This document shows, piece by piece, positions 14,175-26,601 of a stretch of 36,065 nt of DNA. The stretch's first letter is position 1, and each line of letters starts with the position of its first letter. The stretch is taken from NCBI GenBank assembly GCA_902799015.1, contig CADBZI010000046.1, positions 1-36,065 on the forward strand, written 5' to 3'. The stretch comes from an uncultured Lachnospiraceae bacterium (GTDB lineage Bacteria > Bacillota > Clostridia > Lachnospirales > Lachnospiraceae). The notes below the pieces were generated by a model. It searched no databases. It saw only the letters and a list, made by a program, of their open reading frames with translations, and was not told the origin of the DNA. Made by a program: the position numbers and the translations under genes.

Positions 14175-15276
14175 TCAATCAGCAGACATCGCCTTGCGGT
14201 CCGGCCTGCCGAGGGAATCCCACTTGAGGTACGCATCGATAAACGGATCCAGGTCGCCGTCCATGACCGCCTGTACATTTCCGGTCTCCTGGCCGGTCCG
14301 AAGATCCTTCACCATCGTGTAGGGCTGGAATACATAAGAGCGGATCTGACTGCCCCAGCCGATCTCCTTCACTTCGCCGCGGATGCCTGCCGCCTTCTCC
14401 CGGTTCTCTTCCATCTTGAGCATCAGCAGCCTCGCCTTGAGCATCTGCATTGCCTTATCCTTGTTCTGGAACTGCGAGCGCTCATTCTGGCAGGTTACCA
14501 CGATTCCCGTGGGGAAATGGGTAATGCGGATGGCCGCTGGATCGATAGGTATCGATCCGGATGTCCTCATCCTTTACCTCGATGTCAACATCTTCCTCAA
14601 TGTCAGGCATGACATCGCAGGAGACAAAGGAGGTCTGACGCTTGCCGGCTGCATTGAAGGGAGAGATCCGCACCAGACGGTGAATTCCCATCTCACTCTT
14701 CAGAAGACCGTAGGCATTCTCCCCGTTTACCTGGAAGGTAATCGACTTTATGCCGGCCTCATCCCCGTCCAGCGAATCCAGGATCTCCATCGAGAGTCCC
14801 TTCTTATCGATCCATCTGGAATACATGCGATAGAGCATGCCGCACCAGTCACAGGCTTCCGTCCCGCCCGCGCCGGAGTGCAGCGTCACAATCGCGTCGT
14901 TGGCGTCATAAGGCCCGGACAGAAGCGTACGGATCCGCATGGACTCGAAGTCCTCCCTGAATGCGTCCATATCGCTCCGGATATCGGGAAGGACTGACTC
15001 ATCCTCGTCTTCATTCGCCATGTCGATCATCATGAGGGTCTCTTCATAGAGGTTCTCAAGCTTGCTGTAGGCTTCGATTCCGTTGCGAAGAGAACCCAGT
15101 TCCTTCTGCAGCTTCTGCGCGTTCTCGGGATTCTCCCAGAAGCCCGGCTCCGCCATCGTGCGTTCCAGTTCTTCGATCCGCTTCTCCTTATTGTCCAGAT
15201 CCAGGGAGGAGCGCATCTGCTGCATGGGCTCCTCATAGGTCTTCATCTGGGCTTTCAGTTCATCTAATTCAAGCAT
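14175..15276 (-). pseudogene. prfB: Peptide chain release factor 2, internal deletion and frameshift (GGQ lost)
   Basis: RF2 frees the peptide at UGA and UAA. The reading from 15276 matches RF2 through GAGGTEACDWCGMLYRMY, the codon-recognition SPF (LVRISPFNAAGKRQTSF) and [10 protein letters not shown]. It then runs out of frame for 16 residues and stops at 14482. RF2 resumes in another frame at [13 protein letters not shown] and continues to the normal end at 14175. The block expected between RSSG and AIRIT in the family, including the catalytic GGQ and about 11 codons, is absent from the DNA; by family spacing about 35 nt are lost. The usual RF2 programmed-frameshift site is also absent: RSSLDLD reads straight through. 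It lies 31 nt after secA, as in other Firmicutes. It is either a true mutation or an assembly error. Confidence 0.85.
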
Positions 15277-24576: not shown

Positions 24577-25354
24577 TCAAAAGATCCTGAGCATGGAGGT
24601 CAGAAGTCCCCCTATGACACCTGCCGCATACAGAATCCCGATCATCTTTGCGCTTTCTCTCCGGCTGCGGTTCGAACGGGCAAGCACCAGAATTCCGACT
24701 CCTGCTCCAACCATCAGGCCTGACATCATCGCTCCGGCGCTCATGGCACCGTCCAGATACATGCTGGTGATCGCCACGGAAGCGGCACAGTTCGGAATCA
24801 GGCCGATCAGCCCGGCAAGAATCTCTCCGATGACAGGCTGATTGAAAACAAGATTCTCCAGATTCTGTGTTCCGATCATCTCCAGCACGATATTCAAAAC
24901 AACGGAGATCAGAAAGATATAGCCTGCGATGCTGAGGGTATGCTTCAGCGATGAAGTCCAGATGCCTTTCTCACAATCGCAGTGCTCCGCCTCGCAGATT
25001 CCATGAATTCCGGCTCCGATCTTCCTTACATTCAGGCTTCGGAAAAGAAAGTCCACCGCAAAGCCGGCAATCACGCTCCGAGGTCGACAGAAATACTGCG
25101 ATCAGGGTTCCGGCGGTGATGACCCGGCCGGCATACAGACTTGCCGCAGCAGCGGAAAACCCGCACTGCGGAAACGCCCCCAGAAGTCCCCCTGCCAGCG
25201 GGCCGAACCGATCCGCTCTTCGGATCACGGTTTTTGTTTTGTCACTTGTGTGATGCTCGATATACTCCATCACCAGATAGGTCAGGAATAAAAACGGGAC
25301 CAGTCTGACCGTGTCCTTGGCCCCGTCTGCTATGGCATCCCAGATCTGTACCAT
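24577..25354 (-). pseudogene. Putative ArsP_2-type (putative manganese) transporter, internal deletion and frameshift
   Basis: The N-terminal part starts at 25354 (AAGGAG upstream, overlapping the glyA stop). It reads VRLVPFLFLTYLVMEYIEHH...GAFPQCGFSAAAASLYAGRVITAGTLIAVFLSTS, then leaves frame near 25080. The C-terminal part resumes at VIAGFAVDFLF and runs through GLIPNCAASVAITSMYLDGAMS to 24577. The two Cys motifs PQCGFS and PNCAAS match the family's internal repeat. The segment expected after FLSTSDE, roughly 25-30 residues with part of a membrane span, is missing. The family label and size of the gap are from memory of related proteins. The gene looks disrupted. Confidence 0.75.
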
Positions 25355-25362
25355 GTTACTCC

Positions 25363-26601
25363 TTACTGAAGCGGATATTTCTTCGTGATATCCGCTACTA
25401 TCCTGCGGCACTTGTCCGCCTCCGCATCTCCTTTCAGAATCACAGAGGCGATGACTTCCGCAACCTGGTCAAAGTCATCCTCTTTCAGACCGCGGGTGGT
25501 CGCCGCCGGTGTTCCGAGACGCAGCCCGCTTGTCACAAACGGTGATCTCGGATCTCGCGGAATCGTGTTCTTGTTCGCGGTAATGCCGACATTGTCGAGC
25601 GCTTCTTCCACCTCTGCTCCTGTCCTGCCGGATGCGGTAAGGTCGACCAGCATCAGATGATTGTCGGTTCCGCCGGATACAAGGTCGATGCCTCTGCTTT
25701 GCAGACCCTTTGCAAGCGCGCTGGCATTTTTGACAATCTGTTCGCAATACTGCCGGAATTCAGGCTGCAGGGCTTCCCGGAAGCAGACTGCCTTGGCAGC
25801 GATCACATGCTCCAGAGGTCCTCCCTGGATTCCCGGGAATACTGCTTTATTCAGCTTATGTTCCTTTCCGAATTCTGCGCTGGAAAGGATCAGGCCGCCG
25901 CGCGGTCCGCGAAGTGTCTTGTGCGTTGTCGTTGTCACCACATGCGCATAGGGGAACGGGCTCGGATGAACCCCGGTCGCAACCAGTCCCGCAATGTGCG
26001 CGATATCTGCCATCAGATAAGCACCCACCGCATCCGCGATCTCACGGAATCTCTTAAAATCAATCGTCCGCGCATAGGCGCTGGCGCCGCAGATGATCAG
26101 TTTCGGTCTGCATTCCTTTGCAATGCGCTCCACCTCATCATAATCAATCACGCCATCCGCTGACACGCCGTACGGAACATACTTGAAATAGAGGCCGGAG
26201 AAATTAACGGGGCTCCCGTGCGAGAGATGTCCGCCCTCTGAAAGGTTCATTCCCATAAAGGTGTCGCCCGGCTGGAGCAGGGCCAGTTCGACTGCCATAT
26301 TCGCCTGACAGCCGGAATGCGGCTGGACATTTGCCCAGGTGCATCCGAACAGACGCTTTGCTCTCTCTCTTGCAAGGTTCTCAATCTCATCTACGACACT
26401 GCATCCGCCATAGTAGCGATGCCCCGGAAGGCCTTCCGCGTATTTATTCGTCAACGGGCTTCCCATTGCTGCCATCACAGCATGCGATACCCAGTTTTCC
26501 GACGCGATCAGTTCAATGTGGCTGTTCTGTCTTGCAACCTCTTTCTCAATGGCAGCTGCAATCTCCGGATCTTCCCTCCGTACCTCGTCAATAGAGTACA
26601 T
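25363..26601 (-). CDS. glyA: Serine hydroxymethyltransferase
   Basis: GlyA is a PLP enzyme interconverting serine and glycine and giving methylene-THF. The sequence (412 aa) has the [14 protein letters not shown] start, [12 protein letters not shown] and GSPVNFSG. The PLP lysine is in [16 protein letters not shown]. The C-terminal [15 protein letters not shown] is typical. The ATG at 26601 is preferred (AGGAG upstream) over a start nine codons earlier. A good promoter lies 134 nt upstream. It and fhs, which is nearby, share folate chemistry. Confidence 0.96.

Follow-up and report, generated by a model that had tools for sequence, protein, structure and literature searches.

According to one report, those Mycoplasmatota that have lost the release factor RF2 read UGA as tryptophan, and TGA hardly serves as a stop codon in them (PMC12421855). 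The same source describes apparent prfA pseudogenes in 34 genomes, mostly from species that are represented by one genome, and its authors leave sequencing error open (PMC12421855). Here, we analysed a stretch of 36,065 nucleotides from an uncultured Lachnospiraceae bacterium (assembly GCA_902799015.1, contig CADBZI010000046.1), which is referred to below as the window and which carries an interrupted prfB, the gene for RF2. As in those Mycoplasmatota, the window in its assembled form yields no functional RF2; unlike there, TGA ends 21 of the 30 genes that were considered (TAA 8, TAG 1), a set that was picked by hand from the ORF list and that includes the 3' pieces of both broken genes. The initial annotation had called UGA a normal stop in this DNA, and the count agrees with it, as cbiM, cbiO, nadE and tsaB, which it had named, are all among the 21. 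With this use of TGA, the loss of RF2 should be lethal, and a cell without it is not credible on present knowledge. A change of the code, in which TGA would no longer be a stop, was rejected on the same count. A tRNA scan within the window found two tRNA-Ser genes. With the prfA pseudogenes, the locus shares a broken-looking release-factor gene and differs from them in that the catalytic block is absent from prfB. Compared with prfB of other Lachnospiraceae, the gene is the same and lies in the same neighbourhood, next to what we take to be secA, and like 14 same-genus copies it has no early in-frame stop; the difference lies in the broken frame and the absence of 35 nt with the GGQ block, both seen in the draft of the window only. 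We consider this gap to be, very probably, an error of assembly rather than a real loss.

The prfB gene and its junction

The first piece of the gene groups with RF2, being 96% identical to prfB of the same-genus genome G008 over 249 residues, against 28-29% identity to the RF1 genes found in the same draft as the window. It reads RISPFNA, and its SPF motif is presumably a mark of RF2 rather than RF1. The 264-aa ORF at 15276..14482 (-) is homologous to RF2 as far as RIDTYRSSG and then continues outside the family; the homology restarts at AIRITHF in a different frame, in the ORF at 14570..14175 (-), which ends in TGA (Table 1). In comparisons with four same-genus relatives, the gap measured exactly 35 nt each time and was placed at 14534 or 14536. 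An alignment with 14 same-genus copies showed that the absent stretch consists of the codons for AGGQHINKTSS (residues 249-259) plus 2 nt, with the frame broken there. Both the switch of frame between the two motifs and the absence of about 35 nt of GGQ-loop DNA, as proposed in the initial annotation, are therefore borne out by the ORFs and the relatives. At the level of domains, PCRF (Pfam PF03462) is present in the first piece (E 1.8e-54, residues 31-219 of the 264-aa ORF), while the RF-1 domain that carries the GGQ motif (PF00472) is incomplete, the second piece covering, in the other frame, only profile positions 32-116 of 116; the intact G008 protein covers positions 2 to 116. As no N marks the junction, the flanks were either joined by the assembler or are adjacent in the cell.

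Table 1. Positions of the two interrupted genes in the window
Feature	Position	Strand	Basis
prfB, RF2 gene as a whole	15276 to 14175	(-)	ORFs and RF2 homology
prfB 5' part, 248 codons to RIDTYRSSG; PCRF and RISPFNA codon-reading region	14533..15276	(-)	ORF, domain match
prfB junction, 35 nt missing relative to same-genus relatives	14534..14536	(-)	alignment
prfB 3' part, other frame, AIRITHF to AMSAD, TGA stop	14175..14540	(-)	ORF, relatives
ArsP_2-like permease, 5' part	25073..25411	(-)	relatives, Pfam
ArsP_2-like permease junction, 80 nt missing from the conserved DEMLPI block onward, frame broken	25072..25077	(-)	alignment
ArsP_2-like permease, 3' part, other frame	24577..25074	(-)	relatives, Pfam

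The reading frame is open from the ATG at 15276 through RIDTYRSSG, with no early in-frame stop. The combination by which a programmed frameshift would be recognised, an early in-frame stop together with a frameshift site, was not found in the gene, and all 14 same-genus copies that were read are open as well. The usual autoregulatory frameshift of RF2 thus seems to have been lost in prfB of this genus, alongside the high use of TGA in the window.

A second gap and selection past the junction

The gap in prfB is not the only one in the contig. In an ArsP_2-like permease gene, whose product has 284 aa in the relatives, 80 nt are missing at about 25074. This gene was whole in all 11 same-genus genomes that were searched and also in G018; a search of seven more distant genomes gave no match for it. 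Compared with G008, its two parts had a pS of 0.58 and 0.70 and a pN of 0.062 and 0.075, and by these values both parts have stayed under selection. When ORFs of the relatives were used as queries, no sense gene other than prfB and the permease was divided between two frames, a count that omits three multi-frame queries (two from G008 and one from G002) that run antisense, on the plus strand, to genes of the minus strand. Among the other 28 window genes that were compared with G008, 27 matched in a single frame and the remaining one (721-1941) had no match. Moreover, on contig C24 of the same genome none of the 31 ORF matches to G008 (antisense ORFs included) revealed a frame break, which indicates that such gaps are not found everywhere in the draft.

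The 118 codons past the prfB gap had 0 nonsynonymous and 43 synonymous differences from G015, 0 and 36 from G014, and 2 and 41 from G008. By hand arithmetic, half of the G015 distance should have produced about 76 nonsynonymous changes had there been no selection. Set against this expectation, the absence of any such change shows that the function of prfB was kept until the last few per cent of the G015 branch or is still kept, and a loss, if there was one, would fall within roughly the last 4% of that branch. Since the 3' part is undamaged although it is out of frame, the gap either arose very recently or does not exist in the cell at all. Synonymous distances on either side of the gap, compared with a two-species chimera at the junction in mind, were 0.58 and 0.53 to G008 and 0.65 and 0.47 to G014, values that are near saturation.

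A real and very recent deletion of 35 nt in some of the cells, a dying or minor variant of a species that keeps RF2, would account for several of these observations: the contig is continuous, the 3' part is undamaged, as would be expected of a new mutation, and the synonymous distance to G008 is alike across the gap. We nevertheless regard it as unlikely, because it would require two frame-breaking deletions in one contig, with none in the 27 other compared genes, and because a cell without RF2 should fail to end properly the 21 genes that stop at TGA.

Release factors in relatives and in the rest of the draft

An assembly error in prfB is consistent with the state of the gene in related genomes. 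In a first search, all 31 genomes gave a match, some of them to RF1 only, and in a draw of 397 genomes from the family 395 had a match at 1e-20, RF1 matches included. The part of prfB that contains the gap is covered in 15 of the 18 same-genus genomes, and the block is kept in all 15; in 14 of the 18, the gene could be read through GGQHINKTSS, and G012 shows the block at a contig end. RF2 was not found in three of the same-genus genomes (G007, G011 and G016). The eight closest same-genus copies were 87-96% identical to the window copy over 249 residues, and the nearest one in a scan of named genomes, among which that of the window may be lacking, from the Lachnospiraceae draft RUG12671, was 97% identical over 248 residues. 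Among the prfB copies that were read, the window copy is the only one in which the block is absent while its flanks are present.

It was also proposed that a second RF2 exists. According to this account, prfB would truly be lost and its work done by a gene outside the assembled contigs, for which there is room in that the draft bin (2.64 Mb, 168 contigs, 3.9% contamination) is only 85% complete. Within this draft, matches to the RF-1 domain were confined to three places, prfB of the window and RF1-like genes on contigs C24 and C103, and a full-length RF2 query returned the same three and no second RF2. A degenerate DNA pattern for GGQHINKT had zero matches across the draft; as a control, the same pattern was present in 9 of 11 same-genus genomes, and of the more distant genomes 1 of 7 had it. 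Both of the other RF-1-domain genes read PET, which presumably fits the PxT motif of RF1, and by identity they are RF1: the C24 gene is 92% identical to RF1 of G008, and for the C103 gene the identities are 96% with RF1 of G006, 95% with RF1 of G004 and 68% with RF1 of C24. The C103 gene was considered as a replacement for RF2 and rejected as an RF1 that probably comes from a second species of the genus. A second RF2 is accordingly not supported in the assembled part of the genome, where the other two RF-1-domain genes are RF1, one of them probably foreign. Such a gene would, in addition, leave the undamaged 3' part of prfB unexplained, and we hold this account to be extremely improbable.

Contig C103 (3018 bases) carries ORFs that we take to be prmC-, prfA- and glmM-like. 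The high identity of its RF1 to that of G006, set against 68% to the RF1 of C24, marks the contig as probably foreign. On these identities, C103 probably belongs to another species of the genus, which would make the bin impure.

The last proposal, that a truncated RF2 with its codon-reading domain and without a hydrolysis domain is made and put to lasting use, can point to an open 264-aa ORF with a whole PCRF domain and is scarcely conceivable, since the 3' part, useless in such a protein, is fully selected in its old frame, which excludes a long-standing truncated form, and no such form occurs in the relatives' copies that were read; as a lasting state it is contradicted by the undamaged 3' coding sequence together with the heavy use of TGA as a stop. 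If a factor bound at UGA but did not release the chain, it should obstruct the reaction.

Origin of the gap and its meaning

In view of the undamaged 3' part, the intact relatives, the impurity of the bin and the presence of two N-free gaps on a single contig, an error of assembly is the simplest account. The window would then be one contig of a draft bin from a gut-type, Lachnospiraceae-like bacterium with an ordinary RF2 gene; the 35 nt that encode the GGQ block would have been dropped in the assembly, just as the same contig would have lost 80 nt in the permease; we infer that the assembler, not the cell, made the gap in prfB. The cause may perhaps be that related species within a sample have this conserved stretch in common, so that short reads resolve it poorly.

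Evidence on an assembly error comes from other drafts, and on such a cause from sequence sharing. Breaks were sought in 20 chosen genomes, 16 of the 397 selected for a low best score or for single or three matches and four of the 31 from the first search; the damaged prfB copies given here are those among the matches listed in this sample, so that there are at least these. In four further drafts, prfB is interrupted at the GGQ block or close to it: in query residues, G012 has a contig end at 241, G394 a contig start at 248 and G023 a break at 265-267, and G239 is the fourth. Breaks away from the block were found in G024 (114 and 152) and G031 (139). Coming from a chosen sample, the breaks near the block are no more than suggestive.

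In G239, prfB (G239:C69:24600-26200) has a run of N after the GGQ block, near residues 285-294 and with a short repeated stretch on its flanks; this has the look of a scaffolding artefact. In nine of the 16 chosen family drafts (G060, G094, G155, G194, G248, G273, G343, G371 and G414), only an RF1-like match was found; five of these nine are 90-95% complete, and missing contigs are the likely reason for the result.

In conservation across 13 relatives, the 35-nt gap stretch ranked 36 of 1100. The most shared exact 21-mer of prfB in these relatives starts at the gap (0.22, with the next at 0.21 elsewhere), whereas the most shared 27-mer (0.15) lies elsewhere and those at the gap reach at most 0.08. 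In the permease, the most shared 21-mers lie away from its gap. When random blocks were drawn from the syntenic stretch, 13% were at least as shared as the deleted block for 35 nt and 6.5% for 80 nt; by summed sharing, 12% and 9%, respectively, at least equalled the deleted ones. In their degree of sharing, the deleted blocks stand out only moderately within the region as a whole. A cause in shared k-mers is thus favoured by the 21-mers of prfB but not by its 27-mers, and the signal is weak or absent elsewhere.

Among the three options that had been raised at the outset, a wrong assembly is well supported by the second gap, the selection on the 3' part, the intact relatives and the breaks in other drafts, while a second RF2 is not supported in the assembled part of the genome and a truncated RF2 is contradicted as a lasting state. 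If the gap were real, this would be a bacterium with UGA stops and no working RF2, contrary to what is known about termination. That some Lachnospiraceae strain has really, and very recently, lost the catalytic block of RF2 and survives for the time being with the codon-reading half only, through some bypass of UGA termination, is in our estimate very unlikely. As an artefact, the locus is a reminder that N-free gaps of tens of bases can leave a draft genome with an essential enzyme stripped of its defining motif; testing the stranded 3' part for selection tells such artefacts from long-standing gene loss.
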